A DNA stretch of 51,327 nt from NCBI GenBank assembly GCA_021822165.1, contig JAKARM010000004.1:2384-53710 (forward strand). Direction: 5' to 3'. The stretch's first letter is position 1; each line of letters starts with the position of its first letter. The notes beneath the pieces are model-generated. The model was not told where the DNA came from. It saw nothing but the letters and a program-made list of their open reading frames with translations, and made no database searches. The position numbers and the translations under genes are program-made. Below, one piece after another: positions 21,008 through 37,955 of this stretch. The stretch is from Microcaldota archaeon (GTDB taxonomy: Archaea; Micrarchaeota; Micrarchaeia; Micrarchaeales; Micrarchaeaceae).

Positions 21008-21298
21008 ATGTTGGAAAGCGACCCCAACATTCTTGGCGACCTGTACAAAAACTGCAAGGATGCGAAAGAGAAGATACGATATGCTGCATTGTACGCAGTA
21101 AGTAGAGGAGATGACGTCAGGACTGTTGCAGATATTATTGCTGTGAAAGAATCAATGGTGTAGGGTTGGATACACAGGTGGGAAGCGGAGCACATAGTTT
21201 CAGACAAACCGCGTAGCGGCAGTCCTCCAAAACTGACAGGGGAGGACGAAAAGGAAATAAAGGACGCCAGCACGTTCAGAGCTTCGTTCCTTACGTAG
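21008..21298 (+). pseudogene. Fragment of IS630-like transposase with in-frame TAG
   Basis: The frame from ATG 21008 reads through a helix-turn-helix region (KEKIRYAALYAVSRGDDVRTVADIIAV) to a TAG at 21161. In the same frame it continues GWIHRWEAEHIVSDKPRSGSPPKLTGED, the standard N-terminal DNA-binding segment plus linker of IS630/Tc1-type transposases. A second stop follows at 21296 and no DDE catalytic domain is present. The gene is thus both nonsense-mutated and truncated. TAG most likely replaces a Tyr codon. Confidence 0.7.
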
Positions 21299-21711
21299 GC
21301 TAACGACCCAACGGTCTTCAAGCTGCCACCAGCACGGCTGATTTTGCGGGGAGTCAAAATCAGCCTTTACGCCGCCATGTCCTACAAAGTAGCCGCAGCA
21401 GCCGTAGCCCGCCGTGCGACATCCACAGATGTCTTTAAAGGCGGGCGTAGGCTGCAAAGCGGGAGTTTCTCTACATGAAACTCTAACATGGACTGCTCTA
21501 ATATTGATGTGCAGTAGTCCCTCGACAAAAAAGGTGGTTTTTGGGCTGTTGTCAAGACTTTTCTCTACATGAAATGCACAGGTCATTTAGAGAAACATGA
21601 ACCGTGTAGAGAAATGCCAAAATAATGAAAAGGCGGCTGCCGCAGGGACTATCTACTGAGCGAAACATTTTATATATGTAACTACTATATAATTACAGCG
21701 TACAGCGACAG
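21299..21711 (+). other. Gene-free stretch with short repeats and HicBA promoter
   Basis: No intact gene is seen in about 410 bp. The 15-bp sequence TTTCTCTACATGAAA occurs twice (21466-21480 and 21560-21574), and its first nine bases recur inverted at 21606-21614. One broken plus-strand frame contains Cys pairs and a tail that could be the remains of a TnpB-like protein, but it has several stops and I cannot prove it. The TATA box TTTATATATG at about 21669-21678 probably serves hicB. Confidence 0.4.
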
Positions 21712-21921
21712 ATGAATTTTATGCGATTTAGAGTCTTGATAGAGAGAGATGGGGATGGCATCTATGTGGGCAAGGTACCTGACCTGCCGGGATGCGCTAC
21801 CGAAGGCAAGACCAAGAAGGAACTTATGAAGAACATGAAGGAGGCCATACAAGCTTATATGGAATCTTTGAAGAAGCACGGCGATCCTATCCCTGTGGAA
21901 TCGGTGCAGATAAGTGTCTAG
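21712..21921 (+). CDS. hicB: HicB-family antitoxin (short form)
   Basis: Antitoxin partner of the HicA mRNA interferase. The 69-residue product shows the HicB fold signature: FRVLIERDGDGIYVGKVPDLPGCATEGKTKKELMKNMKEAIQ, with PDLPGCATEG diagnostic. It lacks a C-terminal DNA-binding domain, as in short archaeal HicB proteins. It overlaps hicA by 8 nt. A second start at 21721 is possible. Confidence 0.85.
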   Translation: MNFMRFRVLIERDGDGIYVGKVPDLPGCATEGKTKKELMKNMKEAIQAYMESLKKHGDPIPVESVQISV

Positions 21922-22171
21922 GCTTATACCTCTTGATTATGACAAGGTCATAACGGTTCTCTCTAAAGTAGGCTATGTTGTAAACCATCAGAAAGGAAGC
22001 CATATCGTAATGCACCTTGACAAGAAGGATAGGTACACTAAATTATTTGGAGATAGAAGACCAGAATATATGATAGTAGTTCCTGCCCATAAGCCGATAG
22101 GCAGGGGCATGGTAAGGACTATCATGAGCGAGGTTGACTTGTCAGTTGACGAGTTCAATAGCTTGGCGTAA
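21914..22171 (+). CDS. hicA: HicA-family mRNA interferase toxin
   Basis: An 85-residue double-stranded-RNA-binding-like toxin that cleaves mRNA. The conserved GSHIVM carries the catalytic His, and VVPAHKPIGRGMVRTIM matches the C-terminal HicA motif. The start is GTG overlapping the end of hicB. Here the antitoxin gene precedes the toxin, opposite to the classical hicAB order but common for the short HicB form. It ends 9 nt before the left 448-bp repeat, so the pair may stabilise the adjacent island. Confidence 0.88.
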   Translation: MSRLIPLDYDKVITVLSKVGYVVNHQKGSHIVMHLDKKDRYTKLFGDRRPEYMIVVPAHKPIGRGMVRTIMSEVDLSVDEFNSLA

Positions 22172-22179
22172 CCCTAACT

Positions 22180-22627
22180 TTTAGCTTAAAGCAATATTGC
22201 ACTTAAACGCCCACTTTCTAAATATTAATATGTGATATAAACGTACCAATATATTAAAATTCTATTATTTTAAGTTAAAATTAAGCTTATAAAATTTCAG
22301 GTCATTTACATTATTTTTATGTTTTATAATGCATGATTATTGAAATTGACCTAGTATGGCCATAGTTTGTTATCCTAATCCTAAGAGCAAATGTCTGTTG
22401 GTTATTTGTAATCTTTAATAGCAATTTGGGCGTTACATTTACTATACAGAATCATGTTGTATTAGTATCAAACGATAACCATATGGCCTGTGATCCATTT
22501 TCCTCTATCTAAGTACAATTTCTTATCTTCCATATAAGAAGAGCTGCTGCCGTTTGTGCATTTATAAATTACGTAGGGAACTGCACACGCTTCTCTCGTA
22601 AATCCTAGATGCTCCCACCGGGATTTG
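22180..22627. repeat. Left copy of 448-bp perfect direct repeat (candidate att-containing end)
   Basis: Identical base for base, as far as I can read, to 28437-28884 (offset 6,257). The right end (22611-22627) is the last 17 nt of the tRNA-Glu gene; identity stops inside the T-loop. The left end carries, on the minus strand, the first seven codons of the dikinase gene (VQYCFKL), after which the sequence switches to the end of hicA. It thus contains the promoter and truncated 5' end of a lost second copy of that gene. Confidence 0.9.
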
Positions 22628-22998
22628 CTTGAAAACAGAATTCACCAAGGATATACGATGCAATAAAGCAGAAATAGTTTAACAGCATTAAACTTGAATA
22701 ATTTTGTATGTTCTGATTTTTATTATTTTGGTAGAAGACTCACAAAATAAGATAGAATAATAAATGTTATTTGTTTACACATTTGACTGTTGAAGGAAAT
22801 CTTATTGAAATATTAAATCATTATTAACCAAAGGTCTGGTGAGAAGGTTAGAACCACATAACATCCTATTGGTCTCAATAGTCTAGGATTTAGAGTGTTT
22901 TAGAGTTTTCAATGTTGGGCGTTTACTATTAAAAACCCATGTGATTTTCAAAAGCAAAGGTATATATAAATTTAGAAAAATTGATATATCGTGATTGC
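22628..22998 (+). promoter_or_regulatory. AT-rich upstream region and promoter of the peptide-radical SAM operon
   Basis: About 370 bp without a convincing gene. TATATATAAA (22961-22970) is a strong TATA box 29 nt before the small-peptide start, so the leader would be only a few nucleotides. GGGCGTTT at 22917-22924, about 40 nt above the TATA box, also occurs next to the dikinase start and once more in each 448-bp repeat, making it a candidate shared regulator site. Confidence 0.5.
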
Positions 22999-23100
22999 AT
23001 GGTACGTAAACTGAGTAGTATAAACAAAATAGTAGATAAAATTCTGAACGAACCTAAAAAAGTACATAGGATATATGACCTATGGAGGGGGCGCTCATAA
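22999..23100 (+). CDS. Short peptide, candidate radical-SAM-modified (RiPP) precursor
   Basis: A 33-codon frame that is below usual gene-calling size. GTGAT lies exactly 3 nt before the ATG, matching the strongest ribosome sites in the window, and a TATA box is correctly placed upstream. The peptide has a basic, hydrophilic N-terminal part (MVRKLSSINKIVDKILNEP) and a short C-terminal tail with aromatic residues (HRIYDLWRGRS). That layout, leader then core with Tyr, Trp and Arg, next to a radical SAM/SPASM gene 38 nt downstream fits a ribosomally made, enzymatically crosslinked peptide. No Cys is present, so thioether products are excluded; carbon-carbon or similar links would be expected. Inference, not proof. 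Confidence 0.5.
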   Translation: MVRKLSSINKIVDKILNEPKKVHRIYDLWRGRS

Positions 23101-23138
23101 GCGTTACTTTATTATATTTATAAAATATCTGTGGATAG

Positions 23139-24395
23139 ATGTACACTATACAGCAATTAGAGGAAACTAATTCTACTGTTAGCAAATCTATTTGGAGGAT
23201 TTCAAAATCCAGTAAATTTGTCCCTAACAGCGTCTCGATTATTGTAAAGCTGACGAATAGCTGCAACTATGGATGTAAATATTGTTATATATCAGGACCA
23301 TTAATAAGTAGTGACAAAAAGGAGTTTAGCAACCACAAGTACTTATCCGACTTGTATAATAAGTTAGCAAACAGTAAGACCATAAAGTATGTAAATCTAA
23401 TCTCTCACGGGGGAGAACCACTTTTACTTGGTAAGAAGTTCTTTAAAGACATGATTAACGTTCAAAAAGAAATACTTAAAGATAAACAAATAGTTAGTAC
23501 CATACAAACAAACGGTTCATTAATTGATGAAGAGTGGGTCGAATTCTTTAAAAAAAACAATTTTCATGTTGGGATAAGCTTAGATGGACCTGAAAACTTA
23601 CACAGGGAACAACGACCTTCGTTATCTGGGGACTCTTTTGAACAGACAATTAAGGGGATACAAATTCTTCAGGAAAATGGTATAAAATTTCATTGTCTTT
23701 CAGTAGTAACAAAAAAACTTATTACATACAATACGGAAAATCTGTTTTACTTCTTTTTAGATAATGGTATAAATAGTTTTGAGTTCTTGCCGCAGGATTC
23801 AGTTATAGATAGCAACGGCAACATATTGTCAGAAGACATATATTTCACAAATGAATATGCGGATTTCATTATAAAATTATTTGATGTATGGTATGAACAT
23901 AACGATCCAAATGTACATATATTACTTTTCGAAGATATAATAAGAACGCTTTTAGGGAATGTAACAAAGAGCTGCCAAATTGGCAAAGGCATGTGCGCTA
24001 ATGCTGTTTTTACTTACTACCCAGATGGTACGCTCCAACCATGTGACAAGTTTCCTAGAGCTTACGATAATTCAGAAAATCTAATTACAAAGTTGTCAGA
24101 AGTGAACTCTTTTGATGACGTTTTCACTTTGGATAAACAAAAATCTGCTATCTTGAGTCAAGTTAAAAGCTTCAAGATGTGTGATGGTTGCCCATGGATA
24201 AAGAAATGTAGGGGTGGATGCGTATTCGATAGATATATGTATTTCAGATTAGGTTTAGACAAGACAAATACCTTTAGAGATTGCCCTACATACAAATTAT
24301 ATGGTCACATTGCCAAGCGTTTAATGGAACTTAAAGTAATAAAACATAACCTTGAGCCTTCGCTTTATGATAAAAATGATAAAATGGTGATTTAA
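23139..24395 (+). CDS. Radical SAM/SPASM peptide-maturase-like protein
   Basis: A 418-residue enzyme. The radical SAM [4Fe-4S] site is CNYGCKYC (C42, C46, C49), followed by the SAM-binding GGEPLL. The C-terminal SPASM domain has the full Cys pattern: C286-x10-G-x4-C302, then C348-x2-C351-x5-C357-x3-C361 and a last Cys near 383, able to hold two auxiliary clusters. This architecture belongs to anaerobic sulfatase and RiPP maturases; no sulfatase gene is nearby, and a small peptide lies directly upstream. Its codon use is AT-rich, unlike core genes. GTGGAT precedes ATG 23139. The stop overlaps the next start (TAATG). Confidence 0.85.
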   Translation: MYTIQQLEETNSTVSKSIWRISKSSKFVPNSVSIIVKLTNSCNYGCKYCYISGPLISSDKKEFSNHKYLSDLYNKLANSKTIKYVNLISHGGEPLLLGKKFFKDMINVQKEILKDKQIVSTIQTNGSLIDEEWVEFFKKNNFHVGISLDGPENLHREQRPSLSGDSFEQTIKGIQILQENGIKFHCLSVVTKKLITYNTENLFYFFLDNGINSFEFLPQDSVIDSNGNILSEDIYFTNEYADFIIKLFDVWYEHNDPNVHILLFEDIIRTLLGNVTKSCQIGKGMCANAVFTYYPDGTLQPCDKFPRAYDNSENLITKLSEVNSFDDVFTLDKQKSAILSQVKSFKMCDGCPWIKKCRGGCVFDRYMYFRLGLDKTNTFRDCPTYKLYGHIAKRLMELKVIKHNLEPSLYDKNDKMVI

Positions 24396-24923
24396 TGACA
24401 ACCAAGAAAACAAAAAGTCCAAAGATGGCAAAAGAGGAGAGTTTATAAGAAAAAAAAAGAGAAAAGAGAAACAAATTTTGCAGGAGTTGAATTACCTAAA
24501 GGGATAAAACTAAAAGGAATGGAGTTTGTAGGATTTGACTTTAGAGACGCAATAATTCAAGATTTAGACCTTTCTGGCTCAGATTTTAGCTATTCATATC
24601 TTAGGGATATTGATCTTAAAGGCTCAACGATTAGAGGTTCGATATTCAAGTGTGCTGGTGTGAGGGGTGGAGACTTAGAAAGCATGGGTGCTACTGATAC
24701 TGTGTTTGAAAGCGCTTATATGTGTGGAGCTTATATAAAAAACGCAATCTTTAAAGATGTTAAAACAGATAACGCATTTCTTAGTGGTACTTATTTTGAA
24801 GCGACTGATATAAGGAGGATGTTCGGTCTCGACACAGCTCACGGATTAGAATCTATAGTATTTAGGCAGACTATCGTGACCGATGAGCAAAAAAGTCAGA
24901 TAGAATTAAGAAAAGCCAGATAG
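24395..24923 (+). CDS. Pentapeptide-repeat protein, apparent frameshift near the start
   Basis: From ATG 24519 on, 134 codons encode a right-handed pentapeptide-repeat helix (FDFRDAIIQDLDLSGSDFSY and similar A/S-[D/N]-[L/F] repeats). In the same frame the repeats already begin upstream (NFAGVELPKGIKLKG), where no start exists. A perfect GGTGAT lies 3 nt before ATG 24395, which overlaps the radical SAM stop, but that frame ends at TAA 24446 after 17 codons. Removing one T near 24442-24444 would join both into about 175 residues. So the gene is frameshifted, mis-sequenced, or recoded. Pentapeptide proteins such as McbG and Qnr protect gyrase from toxins, so self-immunity is a plausible role. 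Confidence 0.7.
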
Positions 24924-24933
24924 AATTAAGAAA

Positions 24934-26457
24934 CTTAACTTCGCCACTTTAAGTAGCGAAGTCTCTAATCTTTTGACCTAACCTGATTCGCCAAATCAAC
25001 TTTACCCGCGCAGATTGAGATTTTTATCTCCGTATTTGAGGGGAAAGTCACCCAAAACCGCCCTAATTGGCGGTGAAAGATTGCTTACAACCCTGATTCT
25101 GAATGCGTTTTGCGGGTAAACTACGGTAAGTGTCAAATTCCCAAGGTATTTTTTGAGTAACTTGAAATTTTTGACATCAGGATTCTTGCATAAATTCAGT
25201 GTCAAATTTATTATGGCAGTCGCGAGGAAACAGATGAATAATGCACCAATTATTGCATATTTATTCCAGTGCCTGATTGGTCTGATTTCTCCACCTTCCT
25301 TCATTCCTCTTATGAACTTTTCCGCAACATCCCTTTGTTTGTAAAGTTCGAGTATCTTGCGCGGTTCGGCATCCAAGGAACTCTCGAGAATGAAGAATCC
25401 CTCTATCCCTGTTATGTAAGGAGTGTGTATGTCTGCGAGAGACCGTTGAATTTCGGGATAAAGACCAATCCACCCCTCCTTTGACGGAAACATCTGAATT
25501 GCCTTGTGCCGCTTCGCCTTTTTAATGAGTTCATCGCCTTTCGTCATCCTCTTCTTGAACTTCGAGTCCTTCTTGTGTAGTTGGTCTTCGCAGAGTTTCT
25601 TCGAGAAATAGATGTAAAGGAATTCGCCAGGACGTTTTGAAGGTTTCTTTGCAGACAAATATCCGACTCCGTTGCAGTCGAATTTTTCACATTCCTTGTC
25701 AAAACTTTTTATGAGATTCTTGTATGTACCGACTTTCTTCGGTTTCAAAGTCAGGTAATTCAAACCTCCTTCGACTATTGTGTCCTTCACTTTCGGGGTG
25801 TTTGCACCGCAGTCAAACATCAAAAGCGATCCTCTATCAAGAATCTTTGTGCAGACTTTCAGCATCTCTCTCATATGCGTCTTATCCTGAACATTTCCTC
25901 TCTGTATTGTCAGTGCAGACGGTATTTCGCTTATTCTTGTAGAGATTCCCTAGGTTACTTGTTTCTTGTTAGGCCTATGGTCTCTCGAATATCCATGCGC
26001 TGCAAACTCCGCCTTCTTGCCTTCGAAATACGAAGAGGAGAAATCCGAAATTTGGATCTCGTCTATCAGTCCATGACTTTTGATAATCTCTTGATACCTC
26101 TCAAGAAGGATAGGAAACTCCCTGCCAACTTTTTGCAATGTCTTATAAATTGATCTTTCTGCAATACTGTCATGGATTCCGAGAAGATCAAATCTTTCAT
26201 CGGAAGACATTGACAATATTCGGTGCACGGATACTGCGTCGTCCATTCTGTTGCAGATGAGAAGTTTTACTGCACCGACGAAATTTCGGATCTTGCCTCC
26301 TGCTTTTCCGAAGATATACCCGATATCAAGCCATAATCCGATTCTATTTTATCTGTTACTGCTATACTACCTAATGGTAGTGTTACGTTGTCTCTCATTT
26401 TATCACAAAAACGATGAGACAACACTACCTTTAAAGGTTTAATGTGGTGAGGTTAAG
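24934..26457 (-). mobile_element. IS4/IS1634-type insertion sequence, inactive
   Basis: A 1,524-bp element with imperfect 20-bp terminal inverted repeats: CTTAACTTCGCCACTTTAAG at 24934-24953 and CTTAACCTCACCACATTAAA read inward from 26457 (16 of 20 match). It is flanked by the 7-bp target duplication TAAGAAA (24927-24933 and 26458-26464). The only gene is a broken transposase on the minus strand. A 25-nt hairpin with arms ACTTCGC/GCGAAGT lies in the left end. Confidence 0.8.
25002..26398 (-). pseudogene. DDE transposase of the IS4/IS1634 type, two inactivating changes
   Basis: The product shows ISDFSSSYFEG and GYSRDHRPNKKQV (first catalytic Asp), LLMFDCGANTPKV (second Asp), and YKQRDVAEKFIRGMK, the Y-x2-R-x3-E-x6-K signature of IS4-type enzymes. 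Translation should start at ATG 26398 (GTGAT 3 nt upstream), but the frame shifts near 26330: the first segment reads MRDNVTLPLGSIAVTDKIES, while the rest is in another frame. A second lesion is an in-frame TAG at 25950-25952, probably from a TTG Leu codon. No active transposase can be made without suppression of both. Confidence 0.82.
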
Positions 26458-26524
26458 TAAGAAAAATCACAAAACAGAACAGTTTGTTGTAAGGACAGGA
26501 GCACAATTAAGAAATGAGAAATAG

Positions 26525-28459
26525 TTAATATTGGTTTTGTTTTATTTTCTTTATTTTTGTTGCAAAGCTCAGTTCAGACGTAGCCTTTTCATAAACTAGT
26601 CCATAATCTCTTTTTGCAATATTATATATGCTGTCCATTAATTCTACTATCTCGCCACCCATTCCATGAACTGGGTGATTCTTTTCTATTACTATCTTGT
26701 CTATATAATTTACAAGAGTTTGGCTCTTATTTTTGTCATCAGCGAATATATCTTCTATACAGTCACGGAGCATTACATTTGATGGTATAGTCCAATAACC
26801 AAAGGAATACAAAGAAAGTTTTAGAGCTTTGGATAAAGTATTTTTGTCTTCAATTACATATTGGTTTAACAGATGTTTTGAATCGTCATAGTAACTAGAG
26901 GCTATTTTAAGATAATAGTTTACCTTTTTATCTATTTTTTCAATATCCTTTGTCCTAGTAATTTTTGCAGCTTCTAAAACTTCTTTTCTTATTCTCTTGC
27001 TCCTTTTACATACCTCGAACAATACAGAATATCTATACCAAACTTCTGAACCGCCATCTAGTATAGGTAGGTTGTACTTTTTGTGCAACGCTGCAATTAT
27101 AATATTTAGGTTATCTCCAAGTGATTGATGGTAATGTAATGTAATGTTATTATAATCCTTTTCGATTATTGCAATCTTGTTCCGATATTTGAATATGGAA
27201 AGTTTGTCTGTGTCAACATATGTGGCCTTACGAACTTTTTTTATAACTAATTCTTTTCTGTTAGGAAGCGTAACTTTTCCAGTATCGCCATCAATACAAA
27301 CTTCTTCATTATTTTTTATTATGGTGGATGCCTTTTCTACACCAACCACACAGGGAACTTTATACTCTCTTGACAGTATTGCAACGTGTGAAGTTATCCC
27401 GGCAGGCTCTAAAATTACTCCTCCAAACTCCTTTATTATATAAGAATCATCAAGAGGTAATTCACCAGCAACAAGCAACCTGTCCATACCTTTTATCATT
27501 TCATCTATATTGGCCTTAGGATCAAATATTACAGCTTTGCCGCATACGCTTCCGCTGCTTGCTGGAAATCCACCAAATTCCATGTTGCTAGATCTTAATG
27601 GAACTTTAGCAGTCAATTTTCTAGCTTGAAGAAGTATCGGGCCGTTTGCTGAATAAGCCCATTCAATATCTAATGGAAACATTATATGCCCTATCTTTTC
27701 CATAATGGATGATAAGTCTTTAATCTCGAAATCAAAGAGAACACTCTTTTCACTTTCGGCCTTATATCTTATTATTTCTCTAGTTTCTTTATTAATTATG
27801 TATGTATCTGGTGTTTTTGTTCCTGCAGTTACGCCCTCAGGATTATTAGAAACTGCTTCTATCACATAACGTTTGCTATTGTTTTCATCAGAATTGAAAA
27901 AGAAACCTACGCCATATTTAGAATTTAAAACCATCTCTTGAACTATGCAGGCCATTTTTACGTTTTTGATTTCTATTTTATTTTCTGCCATATACTTTAC
28001 TGCACGGGGACTAAAAAGAGAAAAGAAAACTTTTTTTATAGCATTTTTGACATCTTTCCTATCTAAATTTAAAAGTGTATCAAATCTACCAGCAAAGCTC
28101 ACATTAGGTAAATCTTCACATGTTGCAGAACTTCTTACTACAAAAGGCGGTTGCAAGTCCTTTATAGAATCTTCTATTTCTAAGCTAATTTGATCGTTTA
28201 TTACCAACTTTTCTAAAAGTTCCAAAGTTCTTTTATTATATGTATCTTCTGTTATTTTACTTTTAACGAAATTCTCCACGCAATTTAGCAACTCATCAGA
28301 TATGGCTTTGTTATTTATAAACTCGCTATATGCATCTGTAGTTACTACTATGCCATTTGGAATTTTAGCATATTTGGCTGTCAAGGATAGATTGTATGCT
28401 TTATTACCAATCAATCTAGCTTTTCTTACTGTTTTATTTAGCTTAAAGCAATATTGCAC
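26525..28459 (-). CDS. PEP-synthase-like dikinase with unusual C-terminal half
   Basis: A 644-residue protein. Residues about 10-290 are a PPDK-type ATP-grasp domain (RLIGNKAYNLS at the start, FVVRSSATCEDLPNVSFAGR, and DIEWAYSANGPILLQARKL). Residues about 300-400 are the swivelling phosphohistidine domain, with catalytic His in EPAGITSHVAILSRE and CIDGDTGKVTL. The PEP/pyruvate TIM barrel is missing; about 240 helical residues of unknown type replace it. It therefore probably transfers phosphate from ATP through His to an acceptor other than pyruvate. Rifampin phosphotransferase is an example of such reuse. The start is GTG 28459 inside the right 448-bp repeat, probably leaderless. AT-rich codon use. 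Confidence 0.75.
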   Translation of the reverse strand: MQYCFKLNKTVRKARLIGNKAYNLSLTAKYAKIPNGIVVTTDAYSEFINNKAISDELLNCVENFVKSKITEDTYNKRTLELLEKLVINDQISLEIEDSIKDLQPPFVVRSSATCEDLPNVSFAGRFDTLLNLDRKDVKNAIKKVFFSLFSPRAVKYMAENKIEIKNVKMACIVQEMVLNSKYGVGFFFNSDENNSKRYVIEAVSNNPEGVTAGTKTPDTYIINKETREIIRYKAESEKSVLFDFEIKDLSSIMEKIGHIMFPLDIEWAYSANGPILLQARKLTAKVPLRSSNMEFGGFPASSGSVCGKAVIFDPKANIDEMIKGMDRLLVAGELPLDDSYIIKEFGGVILEPAGITSHVAILSREYKVPCVVGVEKASTIIKNNEEVCIDGDTGKVTLPNRKELVIKKVRKATYVDTDKLSIFKYRNKIAIIEKDYNNITLHYHQSLGDNLNIIIAALHKKYNLPILDGGSEVWYRYSVLFEVCKRSKRIRKEVLEAAKITRTKDIEKIDKKVNYYLKIASSYYDDSKHLLNQYVIEDKNTLSKALKLSLYSFGYWTIPSNVMLRDCIEDIFADDKNKSQTLVNYIDKIVIEKNHPVHGMGGEIVELMDSIYNIAKRDYGLVYEKATSELSFATKIKKIKQNQY

Positions 28460-28884
28460 TTAAACGCCCACTTTCTAAATATTAATATGTGATATAAACG
28501 TACCAATATATTAAAATTCTATTATTTTAAGTTAAAATTAAGCTTATAAAATTTCAGGTCATTTACATTATTTTTATGTTTTATAATGCATGATTATTGA
28601 AATTGACCTAGTATGGCCATAGTTTGTTATCCTAATCCTAAGAGCAAATGTCTGTTGGTTATTTGTAATCTTTAATAGCAATTTGGGCGTTACATTTACT
28701 ATACAGAATCATGTTGTATTAGTATCAAACGATAACCATATGGCCTGTGATCCATTTTCCTCTATCTAAGTACAATTTCTTATCTTCCATATAAGAAGAG
28801 CTGCTGCCGTTTGTGCATTTATAAATTACGTAGGGAACTGCACACGCTTCTCTCGTAAATCCTAGATGCTCCCACCGGGATTTG
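28437..28884. repeat. Right copy of 448-bp perfect direct repeat
   Basis: Same sequence as 22180-22627. It spans the first codons and promoter of the dikinase gene, about 400 bp without a convincing gene, and the last 17 nt of tRNA-Glu. Two GGGCGTT motifs are inside (28463-28469 on the minus strand and 28685-28691 on the plus strand). A minus-strand open frame continues from the tRNA T-arm to 28725 but is probably chance read-through. Confidence 0.9.
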
Positions 28885-28941
28885 AACCCGGGTTTTAAGG
28901 TTGAAAGCCTCACGTCCTTGGCCGGGCTAGACGATGGGAGC
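28868..28941 (-). tRNA. trnE-UUC: tRNA-Glu, anticodon UUC
   Basis: Read on the minus strand, the acceptor arm GCTCCCA pairs with TGGGAGC. The anticodon arm is TGAGG-CTTTCAA-CCTTA with anticodon TTC (Glu, codon GAA), and the T-arm is CCGGG-TTCAAAT-CCCGG. No intron and no encoded CCA. The first 32 nt overlap the end of tmk on the same strand. The 3' 17 nt are duplicated at 22611-22627, making this gene the likely integration site of the island. Confidence 0.95.
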
Positions 28942-29605
28942 CCCGATATCTTTCTAGTATCCTCATTATCTCTTCGCTTATGTCCTCTACTTCCCTGTTT
29001 GCATCTACTATATGGCAATTACTATTGCTTTTTGAAAGTTCTCTATAAATCTTTCTGACTTTGGCGAGGAAGTCCACTTTCTCGAAAAGTTCCGTTGTAT
29101 CCACCGCATTCCTCTTATCCATCTCTATGTCGTTATACCCGTACTTTATCGATTGGCGTATAAATTCCAGCGCCCTCCTTCTGACCCTCTTTATCGCGAT
29201 TTCGGGATCTATGTCCATTACGAAGGTGATGTCGGGTTTTACGAACCTGCTATTGACTTCCACCAGCCATTTCCTGTCCAGCCCTGCCGCAGAGCCGTAC
29301 GCGATTGTCGAGTATATATACCTGTCCGTTACCACGGTGGTGTCGTTTTCCACTGCCGGTGCGATGACTGTGCCTATGTGGTACGCCCTATCGGCGGCAA
29401 AAAGCAGCTGCAGCGAATAGGGGTCGAAATTATCCTCTTTCTCGAGAACCTTCCTTATTATTGTGCCGATCGGTCCGTCCGTCGGCTCGTTCGTCAGCAG
29501 CGTCCTGCCTCCCTCCTTTTTCAGCCGCCGGTATAGTATCGCAGCCTGTTTGCTCTTGCCGGATCCGTCTATCCCTTCGAAAGCTATGAACAAGAGGAAC
29601 ACCAA
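28910..29605 (-). CDS. tmk: Thymidylate kinase
   Basis: Phosphorylates dTMP to dTDP. Walker A is GIDGSGKS, the DR motif is DRYIYSTIAYGSA, and FEGIDGSGKSKQ and NEPTDGPIG are typical of the family. 231 residues. The last ten codons (ending SHRLARPRT) are encoded by the 5' half of tRNA-Glu on the same strand, so the natural protein tail is tRNA-derived. RNase P cleavage of a shared transcript would remove the stop codon. Start is TTG 29605 (GTG 29602 and TTG 29593 are alternatives). Divergent from dcd, which fits shared control of dTTP supply. Confidence 0.92.
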   Translation of the reverse strand: MVFLLFIAFEGIDGSGKSKQAAILYRRLKKEGGRTLLTNEPTDGPIGTIIRKVLEKEDNFDPYSLQLLFAADRAYHIGTVIAPAVENDTTVVTDRYIYSTIAYGSAAGLDRKWLVEVNSRFVKPDITFVMDIDPEIAIKRVRRRALEFIRQSIKYGYNDIEMDKRNAVDTTELFEKVDFLAKVRKIYRELSKSNSNCHIVDANREVEDISEEIMRILERYRGSHRLARPRT

Positions 29606-30200: not shown

Positions 30201-30252
30201 TCTCCTCCTCATCCTCTTTTCCTGCTGTTCCTAAAGGTATTTATATTTATCT

Positions 30253-30284
30253 GAATATATAAACATTTACTTAAGTAAATGTTT
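30253..30284 (+). promoter_or_regulatory. TATA box and 24-bp perfect palindrome ahead of the DNA-transfer operon
   Basis: GAATATATAA (30253-30262) is followed directly by a perfect 24-bp palindrome at 30261-30284 with half-site AAACATTTACTT. It ends 14 nt before the first start codon of the operon and covers the expected transcription start. A dimeric repressor bound there would switch off the whole nine-gene unit (inference). Confidence 0.65.
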
Positions 30285-30298
30285 GTGTATGTGGTTAT

Positions 30299-30712
30299 AT
30301 GAAGATAAATGACGATACTTTCGCTTGGGTGCTGCATGGGGTGCATGCCTTCTCTGCAGACGCATGGATATTTGCAAGGTATCTCCTGTTCCCCGCCTTC
30401 GCCCTGGCGCTCCTTGCGGCAAATGCCAATGCGGCATCCACGCCCCAGATAATATCCCAGCTAGTCTCCATCAGGTTCCTCCTATCCCAGCTCGGCCCCG
30501 CCCTGAGCGCCATCCTCTTCATCATCGCAGGCATATTCTATTCCGTAGGGCAGATGCTCCCCCCTGACAAGAAGGCGAATTTCCATACCGCCGCCATCAA
30601 TATAATAATGGGCGCCATCGTGGTCGGGGTGCTCAGCGCCGCATCGACCTCGCTGGCCCTGGCATCCACGCACCTGCTGAACAACATAACCCAGTCGAAC
30701 ACGAGCGTATGA
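30299..30712 (+). CDS. VirB2/TrbC-like pilin-type small membrane protein
   Basis: A 137-residue protein. An N-terminal signal-like helix ends in Ala-rich ANANAA (possible cleavage). Two more helices follow (LLSQLGPALSAILFIIAGIFYSVGQML and INIIMGAIVVGVLSAAS) with a short charged loop PPDKKANFH between them. This hairpin layout matches VirB2/TrbC pilins and the CedA1 subunit of archaeal DNA-import pili. No sequence identity is claimed. First gene of the operon, under the palindrome-bearing promoter. Confidence 0.65.
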   Translation: MKINDDTFAWVLHGVHAFSADAWIFARYLLFPAFALALLAANANAASTPQIISQLVSIRFLLSQLGPALSAILFIIAGIFYSVGQMLPPDKKANFHTAAINIIMGAIVVGVLSAASTSLALASTHLLNNITQSNTSV

Positions 30713-30723
30713 GGTGAAACGGC

Positions 30724-31764
30724 ATGGCGCAATTCTTTTCCGGGGGGTATTCCATCGCGATAACTCTTGTAGCGATAATGGTTTCCGTAGCAGGGATCAT
30801 TTTCGGGATAGGCTACTCGATGGACGACCGGCGCCTGAAGGAGCTGGGGCGGGCGGAGCTCTACCAGGCGATAATAAACGGCGTGATCGTCGGATCCCTC
30901 CTCCTCGCCTTCGGCACCAACGGGATTGTTCCGTCGCTTATGAATTCCTCGGTCTCCAATCTCGGTTATTCGGCCTGCCCTCCCTTCATGCAGTCGAACA
31001 AGGCAATATGTTTTGCCAACGACTACCTTGTCGGTGCCTATCCTGTCACTATATCCGGCAAGGAATACCCTTCGATATCTGAGATCTCCGTCGGCCTGCT
31101 GCTGCCCCTTGCGACATTGTATACCCTGCTCAGCGTCATATCCTCGATCAAGCTTAATCTCGACGTGGCGGTGATAGGGTTCTCCGGCGCGCTCTCACCC
31201 CTCCTTTCGCAGATGCGCTATGTCATGGAAGCGATAACGTTCGCCATCATAGGGGTATTTGTGCAGGACATACTCCTCAAGTTCATAGCTGCGACGGCGG
31301 TCCCGGTGCTCCTCCCCCTCGGGATCCTCCTCCGCACCTTCTATTTTACGAGGAGGCTCGGCGGCACCATAATCGCGATTGCGATAGGGCTTTTCGCGGT
31401 CTTCCCGCTCACCTACCTGCTCGACGCAAACCTCGTCACGACCTATGCGTCGTACACCACCCCGGCTTCAGTAGATTCCATCACCGCCGCCGCAAATGGC
31501 TCCTCAGCCTCGATCATCGGCAGCCCCAGCCTGACCGGGAACGCAATAGGGCAGGGGGTGATAGGCCAGCTGACCGGCGCGCTTTCCTCGCTGATACAAT
31601 CCGTAGAGGGGCTAATACAGAGCCTACTGCTCACCGTCGCCATGCTCGTCGTCGAGGTCTTCTTCCTCCCTGTTTTCAGCATAATCCTGACAACAGTATC
31701 TGTAAGGGAGCTTGCGCGGATACTGGGCTCCGAAGTGTCATTCGCAAGGTTCGATGTGTTCTAG
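30724..31764 (+). CDS. CedA/VirB6-like polytopic channel protein
   Basis: A 346-residue integral membrane protein with about eight helices. The segment PLGILLRTFYFTRRLGGTIIAIAIGLFAVFPLTYL resembles the conserved core of archaeal CedA-type proteins, which are distant VirB6 relatives. An extracytoplasmic loop with two Cys (SACPPF...AICFAND) may form a disulphide. Such proteins form the membrane channel for DNA import or conjugation. It lies 12 nt after the pilin gene and 9 nt before the next. Confidence 0.65.
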   Translation: MAQFFSGGYSIAITLVAIMVSVAGIIFGIGYSMDDRRLKELGRAELYQAIINGVIVGSLLLAFGTNGIVPSLMNSSVSNLGYSACPPFMQSNKAICFANDYLVGAYPVTISGKEYPSISEISVGLLLPLATLYTLLSVISSIKLNLDVAVIGFSGALSPLLSQMRYVMEAITFAIIGVFVQDILLKFIAATAVPVLLPLGILLRTFYFTRRLGGTIIAIAIGLFAVFPLTYLLDANLVTTYASYTTPASVDSITAAANGSSASIIGSPSLTGNAIGQGVIGQLTGALSSLIQSVEGLIQSLLLTVAMLVVEVFFLPVFSIILTTVSVRELARILGSEVSFARFDVF

Positions 31765-31773
31765 GGTGTGCAT

Positions 31774-32517
31774 ATGGGCAAAAGGGAAAATATCTATTAC
31801 GTTTCCATCGCGGTGCCGCTGGCCTCCTTGGCATTCGGGTTGGTCCTCAAGAGCCCCCTGCTCGCCTCCCTTTCGGTGCTCTCGGCCGCGGTGTCGCTTG
31901 CCGTATATAATTTTTGGGATGCCATAGAATCGGTCGCTTTCCGACACACGGGCATGGTGCACAAGGCCGGAAAATACGAGCTTATGGGGGACAGGGAATC
32001 CGCCGTGAGGCTTGCCGAGGGCCGCTATATCGCGACCTCAGCAGCCCTCCTCAATCCTTCCCCGAAAGGGAAGATAACCCGCGACGATCTCGAAGGGATA
32101 ATATCGCGCCTCAATGTGCCGTTCAGGTTCTCTGTCCATGTGGAGAAGCTCGACCTCGCCGGCCTGCTCGACGAGCTGAAGACAAGGCGCACCATGAAGG
32201 AGCTGGCGATCTCGCGGATGGGGGCGTCAGCATCTTCCAACGCCAGGGCGAAGGCGGACAGCCTGCGCCGCGAGATAGAGCAGATCTCAAGCGACATCGA
32301 TGCCGTCTCATCCGGGGGCACCCCGCTCGCCCTTGCCTATTACCTGGCGACCTCTGCGGCGTCGTCCAGCCGCGCCTACGCAGAGAGCGAGGCTAGGCGC
32401 AACCTCCTCTCTGTTGCAGGGGCATTCGATTCTGTGACCGGCTCCCGTTCCAACCTGCTTTCGGGGGAGAAGCTCGCATCCCTACTGAACTACGATTCCG
32501 ATCCGGTGAGCGTATGA
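31774..32517 (+). CDS. VirB3/VirB4 N-terminal-domain-like membrane protein
   Basis: A 247-residue protein. Two closely spaced N-terminal helices (residues about 8-50) form a VirB3-like hairpin, and the rest is a soluble domain containing FRFSVHVEKLDLAGLLDELKTRR and a coiled-coil-like segment (KADSLRREIEQISSDIDAV). This pattern is like the non-ATPase N-terminal half of VirB4/TraC proteins (for example with a VirB3 fusion). Its end overlaps the ATPase gene by 4 nt (ATGA), so the two may be a split VirB4. Start is ATG 31774 or GTG 31768. Inference from architecture only. Confidence 0.5.
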   Translation: MGKRENIYYVSIAVPLASLAFGLVLKSPLLASLSVLSAAVSLAVYNFWDAIESVAFRHTGMVHKAGKYELMGDRESAVRLAEGRYIATSAALLNPSPKGKITRDDLEGIISRLNVPFRFSVHVEKLDLAGLLDELKTRRTMKELAISRMGASASSNARAKADSLRREIEQISSDIDAVSSGGTPLALAYYLATSAASSSRAYAESEARRNLLSVAGAFDSVTGSRSNLLSGEKLASLLNYDSDPVSV

Positions 32518-33611
32518 CAACAGAGAGGATATCGAATACGTCGGCGCTGAGCATGCATATGGGGCTCTTTCCGATGTCTGAACCCAAATCTGCATTCTTG
32601 GAAGGGATGTATATCGGCAGAACGGCGAATTACCGCCAGCCCTTTTTCCTCAATGTTTCAGACCTGCTGAACCCGCATATGGCTGTCGTAGGGATGAGCG
32701 GATCCGGGAAGAGCTATCTCCTCAAGGGGTTGGTTTCCAGGGCGCAGGCCTATGGCGGATGCGGGATCATCATAATCGACTGGAGTGGGGAATATGAGGG
32801 GATTGCCGGGGACCTTGGGTTCGGGGACCTCCCTCCATGCGCAGATCCCGGCGCATTCGACATAAGGGGGGCGTACATAGCGAGGCTCTCGCGGATAAGG
32901 GATATCCCCGCCAGGACGGAAACCGCGCTTTCGGCGCTCAGATCCCTTTCGCGCTTCCTCCTCGCATCCCCTCCCGGCGGCGGGCTGAAGGCATTCATCA
33001 TCATGGACGAGGCGTGGAAGGTGCTTGGCGGGTCCGAGCTCTCGTGGTTCTACAGGGAGGGCAGGAAATACGGGATCGGGGTGATCTCGGCGACGCAGAT
33101 GGTGGGCGACATAGACAACGAGATCATGGCTAACTCATCCACGATCATCCTCTTCAGGCTCCGCAGGCGCAATGATTTCGCGCCGCTGATAAATGCCAAC
33201 CTGATATCAGAAGGCGATGCCGAGCGCCTTTCCTCCCTCGACATCGGCAGCTGCATGGTCTTGCTTGCATATGGCGGGCGCGCCGATTCCGGGAAATTCT
33301 TCATAGGCAGGGTGGAAGGCCCCTGCCAGTCATGGTATTCGATAGATGGTGGGATTATGCAATTGGCTATTTCGGGAAAGAGGTTCAAGGATGCGACCGG
33401 GGCGCTTGGCATAGGGGGTGATGCGAAGGCTTCTATAATCCGGGCGGTTGAGATGAACGGCAACCGTATAGATCTCCAGTCACTAGTGCGCCTGCTCTGC
33501 GATGCGAATGCGGAACGGTGCGATGTCGTTGCATACCTGCGGGAGATCGGATTTGACGACAGGACCATATTGGAGTCCTATGGTGGTTATGATGCTGCAA
33601 AGGCGAAATAG
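32514..33611 (+). CDS. HerA/VirB4-type DNA-transfer ATPase (first)
   Basis: A 365-residue P-loop ATPase. Walker A is GMSGSGKS after NPHMAVV, Walker B is AFIIMDEAWKVL, and GVISATQMVGDI supplies the sensor region (Gln after the strand) as in VirB4, TraC and HerA. A DWSGEY motif follows the second strand, a hallmark of this FtsK/HerA group. No membrane helix. It probably powers pilus assembly or DNA movement with the upstream domain protein. The C-terminal 70 residues are helical and unassigned. Confidence 0.8.
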   Translation: MTTERISNTSALSMHMGLFPMSEPKSAFLEGMYIGRTANYRQPFFLNVSDLLNPHMAVVGMSGSGKSYLLKGLVSRAQAYGGCGIIIIDWSGEYEGIAGDLGFGDLPPCADPGAFDIRGAYIARLSRIRDIPARTETALSALRSLSRFLLASPPGGGLKAFIIMDEAWKVLGGSELSWFYREGRKYGIGVISATQMVGDIDNEIMANSSTIILFRLRRRNDFAPLINANLISEGDAERLSSLDIGSCMVLLAYGGRADSGKFFIGRVEGPCQSWYSIDGGIMQLAISGKRFKDATGALGIGGDAKASIIRAVEMNGNRIDLQSLVRLLCDANAERCDVVAYLREIGFDDRTILESYGGYDAAKAK

Positions 33612-34278
33612 CGGCGGCAGGCACCTCCTGCATTCATCGTTTACCGCACGGATCGGGCTTGCATCCCCCCTCCCCTCGCTGGAGCAGAGGATGAGGTCAA
33701 ACCCGCTCCTCAAGCAGCTATCCTATGGCACCATGTTGAGGTATTTGGTCGCAGATATCGATATAGGGGATGGCGGGTTTCCCGTTCTCGAGGTGTACAA
33801 GAACAGGATCGTATACTCCTTCGCCTATCCATCCGGGCCCGGAAGGGGGATATACGCCTCCAACCTGCTGAAGTTTTTTTCGCTGCTCTCCTATGCGGGG
33901 GACATCGTGGCTGTCGACATGGGCTCACTATATCCATATATAATCGATTCCCTCTCGGGTTACATCCCATCTGTCGGCAGCAAGGGTTGCCAAGGCGACT
34001 GCAATTTCAGATGGGTGGAATCCCGCATGAGGTCGGCCGCGAGCGCCAACCTCTATCTCTCCAATCTTTCCCTCAACTTGATGTCGCTCATCGATTCGGC
34101 CGAGGGGAAGGCCCTGCATTACCGGCGCCTCTATCACGAGCTGCTCTATGCGGCCTCCGCGGAGAAATCCGCAGCCGGCGCCGCCCGTTTCATCAGTTCC
34201 CTTGGGGTCGACGCTGCAGAACACAAGGCCGAAGCGGAACGCCTTTTTTCCGGAGCCTCCGGCGAGGTGGGCAGATGA
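33580..34278 (+). CDS. Uncharacterised protein of the DNA-transfer operon
   Basis: A 232-residue soluble protein without recognised domain. It contains LLKQLSYGTMLRYLVADIDIGDGGFPVLEVYKNRIVYSFAYP, a beta-rich segment, and a helical C-terminal half. Starts at ATG 33580, 33589 or 33592, overlapping the ATPase end, and its own stop overlaps the next start by ATGA. The tight coupling implies a role in the same machine. Confidence 0.6.
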   Translation: MVVMMLQRRNSGGRHLLHSSFTARIGLASPLPSLEQRMRSNPLLKQLSYGTMLRYLVADIDIGDGGFPVLEVYKNRIVYSFAYPSGPGRGIYASNLLKFFSLLSYAGDIVAVDMGSLYPYIIDSLSGYIPSVGSKGCQGDCNFRWVESRMRSAASANLYLSNLSLNLMSLIDSAEGKALHYRRLYHELLYAASAEKSAAGAARFISSLGVDAAEHKAEAERLFSGASGEVGR

Positions 34279-35267
34279 GGCACTCGACCATTGCGATTGC
34301 GGCATTGATCATAGCCGCCGCGGCGCTTCTGGCGGTCCGTTCCTTTCCCGCATCTGCTTGCTCCAGCCTCTGCGTGACAGTATTACATAGGCAGGGCGAC
34401 CTCGTGGCAACGGCTGTGAGATATTCGGGCGCCCCCCTCTCCGATTCCCTGTTCTACGTAGCCGAGAACGGCCGTACCTTTTCCCTCAGGACAGGGGGGA
34501 ACGGCTCCCTTTCTTTCTACGCTCCCCTCGGAATCGGGTTCAACAAAATAAACTTCTCCTACGGCGGCTCCGTCTCCGAAGTTTCCCTGTTCTCCCTGGC
34601 CGGGTATTCCGGTTTCCTCTATCTCTTCCTGGGCGCCGCGGCATATCTTCTTGCAAGGCGTCTTTCAGAATCCGGCCTTTTCTGGGAAAAGGTATACATA
34701 AGCTACGAGGGGGGTCCGCTTTCGCGCCGCAGACCGCCGCTGCAGGGTATTTCTGCCGGAGAGATAATGGCATTGGCGAGGTCGGATGCGGACAGGAACA
34801 ATGCCGTGCCCGGCCTGCCGGTCACGCTGCGCCAGGCGCTCAGGGCGGTTTCCATCTTGCGCGATGCCCCTTCCGGCGGGCGCAAAATATATGAAGAGGT
34901 CGTCTGCTCCCTCTCCAGGGCAGGATACCGCGTATCAGGGAATGGCGCCGTGGTGGATATATCAGGCGAAAGGCAGCCGTACGATATTGCATCGGTGACC
35001 GCATACGAGCGGATGATGTCGGGCCTCTCCCCCTCCGGAAAATTTTTGCCTCCCCTGCCCCTGTCGTCCATCTCGGCTGATGGTTCGCAGTTCTCCTCCA
35101 TGCTCAGGCGTGCAAGAAAAAGGCGCATGCCTGCCCTCCTCTATGCTGAAGACTTCCGCGCATGGCGTGCCGCCGGCGGGATGGTGCTGCTTCCCTATGG
35201 CCCTGGCCCTCTCCTGTTGCTCGCCCGCCTGTCGGGCTTCTATTCGGTGGTCCAATGCTGGGAATAA
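34275..35267 (+). CDS. Membrane-anchored protein of the DNA-transfer operon
   Basis: A 330-residue protein. A signal-anchor (IAIAALIIAAAALLAVRSFPASA), an extracytoplasmic Ig-like domain of about 70 residues, a second helix (YSGFLYLFLGAAAYLLA), then a cytoplasmic domain of about 200 residues with no recognised family. Translation is coupled to both neighbours (ATGA before, TAATG after). A scaffold linking the outer pilus to the inner ATPases is conceivable. Confidence 0.6.
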   Translation: MRHSTIAIAALIIAAAALLAVRSFPASACSSLCVTVLHRQGDLVATAVRYSGAPLSDSLFYVAENGRTFSLRTGGNGSLSFYAPLGIGFNKINFSYGGSVSEVSLFSLAGYSGFLYLFLGAAAYLLARRLSESGLFWEKVYISYEGGPLSRRRPPLQGISAGEIMALARSDADRNNAVPGLPVTLRQALRAVSILRDAPSGGRKIYEEVVCSLSRAGYRVSGNGAVVDISGERQPYDIASVTAYERMMSGLSPSGKFLPPLPLSSISADGSQFSSMLRRARKRRMPALLYAEDFRAWRAAGGMVLLPYGPGPLLLLARLSGFYSVVQCWE

Positions 35268-35437
35268 TGCGCTCCATCGCCCCCATCTCATTCGCGGCCA
35301 GCCTGTTCTTCGCCAACATCTCCTCCATCATGCTCCTCTCCCATGATAGGGAGGGGGAAGCGATGAAGCGGCACGGCGCCCTCTTTTATGCATCGATCGC
35401 GCTCTACCTGCTCTCCCTCTCGCTGCTGGTGGTATGA
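35267..35437 (+). CDS. Small two-helix membrane protein
   Basis: A 56-residue product with two membrane helices (SIAPISFAASLFFANISSIMLL and ALFYASIALYLLSLSLLVV) and a charged turn (SHDREGEAMKRHG). ATG 35267 overlaps the upstream stop (TAATG); a longer frame from 35255 adds only four residues. Its size and shape resemble CedA2 or VirB3, without sequence proof. Confidence 0.6.
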   Translation: MRSIAPISFAASLFFANISSIMLLSHDREGEAMKRHGALFYASIALYLLSLSLLVV

Positions 35438-35733
35438 TGTTCGACAACATAATGGGGCTGTATGGCGGTTCGCGCAGCTATGGATGGGTGGCGCTGCCTA
35501 TCTTCTACACCCTCGCCTATTCCTTCATCATCGCCGCCCTGTGGATGGCGTCAGGCTTTTCCATACCGCTCCTTCCTGCCCTCCTCGCCTTGGCCGCAGC
35601 ATTCGCAGCCCACGCCTTTTCGGCCAGGAGGGAAAGGGCGAGGATTTCTCCCAGGATGATGTCGCGTCTGCTCTTGGTCTCTGCGTTTTCGGTGATCGTA
35701 TGCCTTACCTACCTAATATTGCTGCCCCGCTGA
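35434..35733 (+). CDS. Small three-helix membrane protein
   Basis: A 99-residue protein with three membrane helices and a basic loop (SARRERARISPRMMSR) that should face the cytoplasm. Its start overlaps the previous gene (ATGATG around the stop). Family not recognised; the position suggests an inner-membrane component of the transfer complex. Confidence 0.6.
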   Translation: MMFDNIMGLYGGSRSYGWVALPIFYTLAYSFIIAALWMASGFSIPLLPALLALAAAFAAHAFSARRERARISPRMMSRLLLVSAFSVIVCLTYLILLPR

Positions 35734-35738
35734 AGGTC

Positions 35739-37955
35739 ATGAGGATCGCTTCATCGCCCCTCACCGGATTCGGCGGTCCGCAGTTCTTCGAATGCATGGG
35801 CAGGAGCCCTTTCGCCCTCCTCTACGATTTCCCTTCTAAGACGACGAACCTCTGCGCTTCCCCCAGCGGAGGAAAATTCGACATGCTGTCGAATGCGGTG
35901 CCTGGGCTTGCCTTTTCAGATCCGGATCCCGGCGTCGGAAGGGATATCTATGCTTCAGTCCTTATGCCCTACCGGAGCGTAAATTCAGCCCCAGGGGCGC
36001 TATTCTCCGACATCTTCGATTCCAAGAGGGAAAGCGGTTCGGTCTCTGTGCTGTTCCTCCCCGTCACCCTGTGGGAGATGGGCATCGTCAAGAGGGACAT
36101 TGAGCGCATACTGGAGCAGCATGAGGTCCGGGTGACCTCCTCCGTCAGGGACTCTCTCGGGATGCGTTCCAACGTCTCCTCCCAGAGGGAGATCTTTGCG
36201 GGCTCGGAGGAGACGCTCCTCCTCACGGAGATGTTGGAATCGATGAACGCTTCGGCCCTCGGCAACGGTCTAGCCTACAAGGTATATCTCGCGGCCAGCG
36301 ACGAGGAGGCGGCAGGGTATCTCAGGACCCGCATAATGGTTCTCGATGAAAAGCGCATCCGTTCCCCCCTCTGCCTGCTGGAGCCGGAGCTAGGGAAGAT
36401 GTTCCAGATTCCGCTCGGCCAGGACAATGTCAGGGCCTATCTCAATGCTCATGGGAGGTCCAATGTCATGCATCCCGTCAGCACGGTCATGCATTCCTCG
36501 ACAGGCGGGATCAGGGTCGGGACGTTCATGAAGCAATCCCTCTACGATACCGGCATGCCGGTATCCATAGAGAATTCCACGATGAACCTCGGCTTCATGA
36601 TAACCGGCCTTCCGGGTTCCGGCAAGACGCGGGAGGCGATGGCAATACTTGATTCCGCGCTCGGGGCCAAAATCCCACCAATGGTCGTCGTAATATCCCC
36701 TACCGGCGAATGGGACGGCTTTGCAAGGTCTCATGGCATGTACCTGCTCCGCATGTTCGAGGACAACGTTCCAATCAATTTCTTCCGGTGCCCCAGAGGG
36801 GTCAAGAGGGAGAAGTTCTATGAATCCCTGGCGATGATGCTCGCCTCCGCCTCCGACGCCGGCCCCTACCGCAACCCTATGGAAAAATGCATGCTGAACG
36901 CATTCCGGTCAGAATATTCGAAATCCTCCGAACCGGGGCCCCAGGATCTCTACGGCGCCGTCGCGGAGTCTGTGGTGAGGTTCCATGCGAAGAGGACGAA
37001 CACAGGGGTGAAGTATACGAAGCACGGGGAGAACATCATGTCCGCGCTTGAGAACCTCCGGGGGCTGCTCGCAAGGAGGGAATATTCCACGAGGCTCGGG
37101 GTCGTGTTCGAAGAGCTCCTCGGGAAGGGCATCGTGTTCAACATGTCCTCCGCAAGCACCAAGATGAGGCCATACATATACGCCCTCGTGCTGAACCAGC
37201 TCTATTCCATCGCCGATACATTCGATACTTTCGGGGACAACGAGCTGAGGCTCGTGATATGCATCGAGGAGGCGCACAACATCTTCGGCGAGGAAGATTC
37301 GGCTGCGGTGGAGGACATAAAACAGAGGATACAGGATTTCAGGAAGCGCGGCGTGTCCCTGGTGCTGCTGACCCACAACGCCGTCGACATCGATCCGGGG
37401 GTGAGGAGGCTGTGCCAGCTGAAGCTCTACATGAAGCAGTCCCCCGAGATCGCCCCTGCCGCCGCGAAGGAGCTCGTCTTCTCGCATGCGGACAGGGATT
37501 CGGTAGAGGCGAAGATGAAGCATCTCAACTCGCGCATAGGCGCGCTCAACCACATCGTCAAAAACGGTGACGAAAAGGAGGCGCAGGACACGATATTCAT
37601 AAGGACCGCCGACTATTCGGACCCGATCCCTTCTCTCTCCAGGGCAGATCCGCTCCCCGATTACATGCGCAACGCTTCCATAATCCCGGATGCGGTGATC
37701 GTCTCGAAGCTCTTTTTCGCGGCGCGTCCGGAGGAAGGGAAAGCGAGAAGGCGCACATCCATGCGCGCCCTGGTGCTTTACATGGGATCCACCATCGCCG
37801 AGCACGACATAACCGCCATCGTGGACAAGGAGCCGGTATGCCAGGAGCTGATATGCGGAAGGAGGTACACGATCGAGATCGTGGACGGCAAGGGGCGCAA
37901 GCTCCACGAGCTCGATGTCGATTCCGCTCCTGAGATAACCATTGCCGTGGGTTGA
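35739..37955 (+). CDS. HerA/VirB4-type DNA-transfer ATPase (second, CedB-like)
   Basis: A 738-residue protein. The first about 280 residues form a domain without clear match. Then follow Walker A GLPGSGKT, Walker B LRLVICIEEAHNIF, and KRGVSLVLLTHNAVDIDPGVRR as sensor and arginine-bearing segment, typical of HerA/VirB4/CedB ATPases. CedB powers DNA import in Sulfolobales. ATG 35739 has AAGGT close before it; the frame is open 117 codons further upstream but that overlaps two other genes. Last gene of the operon, convergent with dnaJ. Confidence 0.8.
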   Translation: MRIASSPLTGFGGPQFFECMGRSPFALLYDFPSKTTNLCASPSGGKFDMLSNAVPGLAFSDPDPGVGRDIYASVLMPYRSVNSAPGALFSDIFDSKRESGSVSVLFLPVTLWEMGIVKRDIERILEQHEVRVTSSVRDSLGMRSNVSSQREIFAGSEETLLLTEMLESMNASALGNGLAYKVYLAASDEEAAGYLRTRIMVLDEKRIRSPLCLLEPELGKMFQIPLGQDNVRAYLNAHGRSNVMHPVSTVMHSSTGGIRVGTFMKQSLYDTGMPVSIENSTMNLGFMITGLPGSGKTREAMAILDSALGAKIPPMVVVISPTGEWDGFARSHGMYLLRMFEDNVPINFFRCPRGVKREKFYESLAMMLASASDAGPYRNPMEKCMLNAFRSEYSKSSEPGPQDLYGAVAESVVRFHAKRTNTGVKYTKHGENIMSALENLRGLLARREYSTRLGVVFEELLGKGIVFNMSSASTKMRPYIYALVLNQLYSIADTFDTFGDNELRLVICIEEAHNIFGEEDSAAVEDIKQRIQDFRKRGVSLVLLTHNAVDIDPGVRRLCQLKLYMKQSPEIAPAAAKELVFSHADRDSVEAKMKHLNSRIGALNHIVKNGDEKEAQDTIFIRTADYSDPIPSLSRADPLPDYMRNASIIPDAVIVSKLFFAARPEEGKARRRTSMRALVLYMGSTIAEHDITAIVDKEPVCQELICGRRYTIEIVDGKGRKLHELDVDSAPEITIAVG

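Follow-up and report, generated by a model that had tools for sequence, protein, structure and literature searches.

The window analysed here (51,327 nucleotides of DNA, positions 2384-53710 of contig C24 in a 784-kb genome that is 89% complete) carries an operon of nine open reading frames (ORFs) which very probably encodes a machine derived from a type IV secretion system (T4SS). According to the ORF calls, all nine lie on the + strand between 30299 and 37955, and neighbours overlap or are spaced by 11 nt at most. The original prediction had placed nine tightly packed genes at these positions and attributed them to a chromosomal DNA-transfer system of a probable DPANN archaeon; the genes were all present as described, and the named relatives are nearly all Candidatus Micrarchaeota, in line with the proposed lineage. 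A promoter and operator region, outside the coordinates first given, also belongs to the operon. The features are:

30240-30298, + strand: promoter/operator region
30261-30284, + strand: operator just before g1, perfect 24-bp palindrome AAACATTTACTTAAGTAAATGTTT, preceded by a TATA-like stretch
30266-30279, + strand: operator core, 14-mer TTTACTTAAGTAAA
30299-30712, + strand: g1, 137 aa, putative T4SS pilin
30724-31764, + strand: g2, 346 aa, polytopic membrane protein, candidate channel or platform
31774-32517, + strand: g3, 247 aa (an alternative GTG start at 31768 is possible), predicted membrane hairpin with VirB4 N-lobe-like domain
32514-33611, + strand: g4, 365 aa, predicted motor ATPase
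33589-34278, + strand: g5, 229 aa, accessory protein
34275-35267, + strand: g6, 330 aa, membrane protein
35255-35437, + strand: g7, 60 aa, membrane protein
35434-35733, + strand: g8, 99 aa, membrane protein
35700-37955 (or start at 35739), + strand: g9, 751 or 738 aa, second motor ATPase

Homologues of g1 to g5, of g9 and often of g6 occur in the same order at dozens of Micrarchaeota loci, and these are real genes. Among 80 named loci found via g2, some of which end at contig borders, the order g1-g2-g3-g4 was kept in 75, and the median gaps ranged from -4 to +4 nt; 64 of these 75 also had g5, and 38 had g9 nearby. At the scale of the phylum, the pilin profile gave matches in 214 of 295 genomes, 80 of the 96 good ones, and in 94 of 125 genera. 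Conservation across related genomes is thus confirmed.

The VirB2-like pilin was recovered as predicted. Assignment of g1 to the VirB2/TrbC/T4SS pilins is well supported by profile searches, PF18895 (T4SS_pilin) matching 23 of 25 members of the g1 family (best E 4.8e-7) and PF04956 (TrbC/VirB2) 18 of 25 (best E 2.8e-5); the window's own g1, taken alone, stays under the pilin cut-off (E 0.0024). The protein has a signal-peptide-like N-terminus followed by two hydrophobic helices, and the loop between them is positively charged, with a net charge of +1 or +2 in all 77 homologues scored. In a motif scan, 74 of 78 sequences had [AVSTG]x[AG] ahead of the mature core and 33 of 78 the strict AxA. Judged by this cleavage motif, mature g1 would be about 91 aa long. 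CedA1 is reported to be homologous to the N-terminus of CedA; the corresponding comparison of g1 with the N-terminal part of g2 gave no signal (probability 0.3).

The second gene, found between g1 and g3 at every locus, encodes a polytopic membrane protein that is probably a VirB6/CedA-like channel or platform, as suggested by its context, its topology and its structure model. The model is of lower confidence (mean pLDDT 76.5), and in a Foldseek search of the PDB its first rank was R388 TrwI/VirB6, a weak match (E 0.2, prob 0.66), with the same protein again at rank 9. For the proposed CedA/VirB6-like g2 the support is weaker than for the pilin and g3, coming from position, topology and this fold match; no Pfam or NCBIfam family was matched. 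Comparison of g1, g2 and g3 with PDB sequence profiles returned nothing relevant; an ABC-transporter match of g2 (E 0.002) was discounted as reflecting membrane composition.

A VirB3/VirB4-N-like protein had been proposed for g3, and here the structural evidence is clearer. Its AlphaFold model (mean pLDDT 89.1) shows a pair of long helices at the N-terminus and, beyond them, an alpha/beta domain, and Foldseek against the PDB placed R388 TrwK/VirB4 chains or complexes at ranks 1 to 5 (prob 0.96-1.00, best E 5.8e-3). The match is remote (10-12% identity) but specific, and g3 is well supported, at the level of the model, as a two-helix membrane hairpin, in VirB3-like position, fused to a domain resembling the N-terminal lobe of VirB4. 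The sequence of g4, in turn, gives good support to a motor ATPase of the FtsK-HerA superfamily that lacks an N-lobe of its own and would correspond to a VirB4/CedB-like C-terminal half. It carries DUF87 (4.5e-14), and the CedB model matches all 25 members of its family, with a best value of 2e-25 that is still below the cut-off. Models of HerA and VirB4 match g4 too, and the window g4 scores far under every cut-off (47.6 bits with CedB, cut-off 700); no protein of its own genome exceeds the CedB cut-off. Together, g3 and g4 look like a split VirB3-VirB4.

The last gene, g9, encodes a second motor ATPase, in which a CedD-like ATPase core follows an additional N-terminal domain of some 275 aa. 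Its conserved motifs are a Walker A GLPGSGKT, a Walker B EEA and QDFRK, and profile comparison aligns it with g4 as a homologue (probability 97.5). CedD is the best NCBIfam model for g9, matching 9 of 17 family members (best 6.1e-10), again below the cut-off; g9 itself reaches 24.8 bits for a cut-off of 600. Among many VirB4 and HerA models, the top scorer was CedB for g4 and CedD for g9. The N-terminal domain of g9 was compared with g3 as a possible homologue, and no signal was obtained (probability 0.2). The two HerA/VirB4-superfamily ATPases of the original prediction are thus borne out by the DUF87, CedB and CedD matches. A strictly defined Ced system is not, since all CedB and CedD scores fall far under the curated cut-offs: the system is T4SS-derived by its pilin and VirB4 parts, and not Ced by strict tests.

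As HerA models match both g4 and g9, the ATPases could alternatively belong to HerA-type DNA repair and lie beside unrelated membrane proteins. A HerA-NurA pairing, which had been named beforehand as evidence for such an origin, was not observed: NurA was detected in 0 of 60 relative genomes by a search that was positive in 7 control genomes. Together with the pilin and VirB4 N-lobe genes to which the ATPases are constantly linked, this leaves the repair explanation with hardly any credibility. Separately, a further HerA-like, DUF87/TrwB-like ATPase of 610 aa is encoded on contig C36 of the same genome, where no transfer gene was recognised among its neighbours; NurA is missing from 60 of 60 relatives despite this additional protein.

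Of the four intervening genes, g5 encodes a soluble conserved accessory protein that keeps its position in 64 of 75 loci and has a paralogue in a second system described below; no Pfam family was matched. The g6 product is a membrane protein with an N-terminal signal or transmembrane segment and probably a second transmembrane segment, also taken as accessory, and some members of the family have a homologue in this place. Both g7 and g8 encode small membrane proteins, with two and three helices respectively, for which no homologue was detected; the similar size of the g6-g9 gap in relatives suggests that they have equivalents of these two genes.

The homology with conjugation proteins also raises the question of a resident or decaying integrative conjugative element, the more so as a low-GC stretch containing a tRNA-Glu gene lies just upstream (21-30 kb). 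The operon itself, however, has the same GC content as the remainder of the window, unlike this island. It is found in most genomes of the phylum with a fixed gene order, and its housekeeping-like neighbours differ between genomes. In the window, the genes recognised by eye around it include those for DnaK/DnaJ, a family-B-like DNA polymerase, an eIF2-gamma-like GTPase and further housekeeping genes, in keeping with the chromosomal setting initially proposed. The absence of a relaxase, also part of the original prediction, holds for PF03432, found in 0 of 60 relative genomes, other relaxase families not having been searched. No relatives of g2 were found on plasmids or in viral contigs, and none of g9 in viral contigs. 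Plasmids yielded distant DUF87 matches of g4 only; the proteins of plasmid pNOB8 gave no match to g1, g2 or g3, and among them just the two DUF87 ATPases match g4. We consider a conjugative element very unlikely.

The island itself (window 21000-29000) consists of genes with a GC of 0.32-0.42, compared to about 0.5-0.6 around, among them radical-SAM-like, pentapeptide-repeat-like and phosphoenolpyruvate-utilising-enzyme-like genes. It ends near the tRNA-Glu at 28867-28941, and is possibly an integrated element.

The operator upstream of g1 suggests a link to a second appendage. The 20-bp core of the palindrome is unique in its own genome, even with up to 3 mismatches allowed. At no more than 2 mismatches, the box TTTACTTAAGTAAA precedes g1 in 56 of 76 relatives, as against 16 of 1039 control genes; at no more than 3, the figures are 69 of 76 and 34 of 1039. 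These counts are not independent, since the loci are related to one another and the consensus comes from the window itself. Several of the box-bearing control genes appear to use the same intergenic space as g1. Second boxes, where present, mostly lie 19-20 bp from the first; at one mismatch, 0 to 3 boxes were found per genome (12 genomes). Several of the boxes that are not upstream of g1 sit between a divergent, highly conserved winged-helix-like gene of 108-112 aa and an operon encoding a type II/IV secretion ATPase (T2SSE, 1e-17 to 2e-25), two membrane proteins and class III prepilins. From these sequences, the operon is predicted to encode an archaeal type IV pilus. Upstream of it, the box was detected in 16 of 30 cases at 2 mismatches and in 27 of 30 at 3, with a mean best of 2.0 mismatches versus 4.8 in shuffled sequences. 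In the genome of the window, this pilus operon and the winged-helix gene are on contig C29 (2146-8864). The winged-helix gene, assigned from weak helix-turn-helix matches and sequence, is present in 55 of 60 genomes and directly adjoins g1 in one of them (G056). Its position suggests that the encoded protein may act on the TTTACTTAAGTAAA boxes. In two genomes, a gene resembling those for ATP-dependent DNA ligases was seen convergent to the winged-helix-like gene (L172 2944-4731; L175 4359-6152).

The following picture can be proposed. Cut by signal peptidase, g1 would polymerise out of the membrane as a two-helix pilus whose lumen is positively charged, and g2 would form the membrane channel or platform. 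With its hairpin and VirB4 N-lobe, g3 would dock the g4 motor, the pair doing the work of one VirB3-VirB4; g9 would be a second motor, as in the CedB/CedD pair, and g5 to g8 would have accessory roles. The winged-helix regulator, acting on TTTACTTAAGTAAA operators, would switch on the operon and the type IV adhesion pilus together, so that cells stick first and DNA passes next, as Ups and Ced do in Sulfolobales. There, Ups pili bring cells together and Ced moves DNA (PMC11868833, PMC9905601), and it is because of this parallel that DNA exchange is our leading reading. That DNA is the cargo appears somewhat more probable than any other cargo, and we infer that it would be imported into the cell for recombination. 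Taken as a whole, a chromosomal, relaxase-less T4SS descendant that exchanges DNA and is co-switched with a type IV adhesion pilus receives from us a probability of roughly 0.58.

Compared to known systems, the likeness to Ced (CedA, CedA1, CedA2, CedB, CedD, CedE) lies in a VirB2-like pilin, a polytopic channel candidate, two HerA/VirB4-superfamily motors and a chromosomal location with no relaxase nearby; the operator common with a type IV pilus operon also recalls the joint work of Ced and Ups (PMC11868833, PMC9905601). The differences are that the pilin here has a cleavable-looking signal sequence while CedA1 is unprocessed, that a membrane protein of its own (g3) supplies the motor N-lobe, that genes g5-g8 are additional, and that all model scores are far under the Ced cut-offs. 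Ted of Thermoproteales (TedA, TedB, TedC) has a VirB2-like pilin with a signal peptide next to a VirB6-like gene, and a VirB4-like motor nearby (PMC9905601), an arrangement that the present gene set may mirror; but this motor is single, compared to the split g3+g4 plus g9 here, and no ParA, Rad50 or HerA helicase gene was seen beside the operon. With R388 (TrwK/VirB4, TrwI/VirB6, TrwM/VirB3), the resemblance is that of g3 to a VirB4 N-lobe with a membrane hairpin, and VirB6 is the best, though weak, structural match of g2; here, however, VirB4 comes in two polypeptides, and there is no outer-membrane complex, relaxase or plasmid.

The comparison with Patescibacteria brings in the main rival to DNA exchange. 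In these ultra-small, host-dependent cells, MPF-FATA-derived T4SSs are chromosomal, mostly relaxase-less and bear VirB2-like pilins, and components were found essential for epibiotic growth (PMC12102498); the system described here differs by being archaeal, by its gene set, by its split VirB4 and by having no recognised VirB1-like or VirB8-like gene. By this parallel, the same T4SS-derived machine could be aimed at an archaeal host, for protein delivery or for uptake of host DNA or nutrients in ectosymbiosis, the operator switching on attachment pilus and delivery machine upon host contact. Giant nanohaloarchaeal proteins with VirB4-like domains have been proposed to act on hosts (PMC10266531), and a co-regulated type IV pilus suits attachment equally well. 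On the other hand, the best scores of the two motors are with the DNA-importing CedB and CedD models, and no effector or adhesin gene was noticed within the operon. We regard host-directed delivery as a possibility to be taken seriously, if the less probable one.

Several observations weigh against DNA exchange as formulated above. Patescibacterial T4SSs, similarly reduced, serve host-dependent growth, hence the cargo could be protein, and the operon contains no DNA-processing gene. Matches to the CedB and CedD models are confined to short stretches and fall far under cut-off, HerA models give matches too, and no profile connects g2 with VirB6 or CedA. The operator counts carry the dependence stated above, and the box of the pilus operon in the window's own genome is degenerate (3 mismatches). 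Finally, several good genomes (e.g. G018, G019, G005, G006 and G001) are without the pilin system, yet retain the second one.

This second, paralogous T4SS-like system is split over two contigs in the genome of the window: six tandem VirB6-like paralogues of g2 on C7 (1-7282), and two VirB4-N-like g3 paralogues, a 512-aa g4-like motor and the g5 paralogue on C1 (14107-20326). In G018 its genes are joined in one locus, of which the stretch covered contains five g2 paralogues; a gene nearby resembles, by eye, topoisomerase VI subunit B. Among the 60 relatives, all 40 good genomes contain the motor of this system, at 63-73% identity, as compared to 27-36% for the aligned g4 proteins, which points to a conserved core system and a faster-evolving, sometimes lost, pilus-bearing one. 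Tentatively, and at somewhat less than even odds, we suggest that Micrarchaeota run two chromosomal T4SS-derived machines. One would be the fast-evolving operon with the pilus, which a single dedicated winged-helix regulator would switch on along with the type IV adhesion pilus; the other would be a highly conserved core in which five or six VirB6-like proteins stand in tandem. The two might jointly form, in a host-dependent archaeal phylum, a general apparatus for contact-dependent exchange of DNA, between siblings and/or with a host.

No description of such a system in Micrarchaeota was found in the literature searched, preprints and many subscription journals being outside its scope, and in the literature surveyed the accounts of Ced and Ted concern Thermoproteota (Crenarchaea) alone. 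To find a related machine in most genomes of a DPANN phylum would widen the reach of domesticated conjugation among archaea, and may point to a route for genetic exchange, or for host interaction, in genome-reduced symbionts. The operator in common makes for a simple, testable picture, with one regulator, one motif and two appendages.

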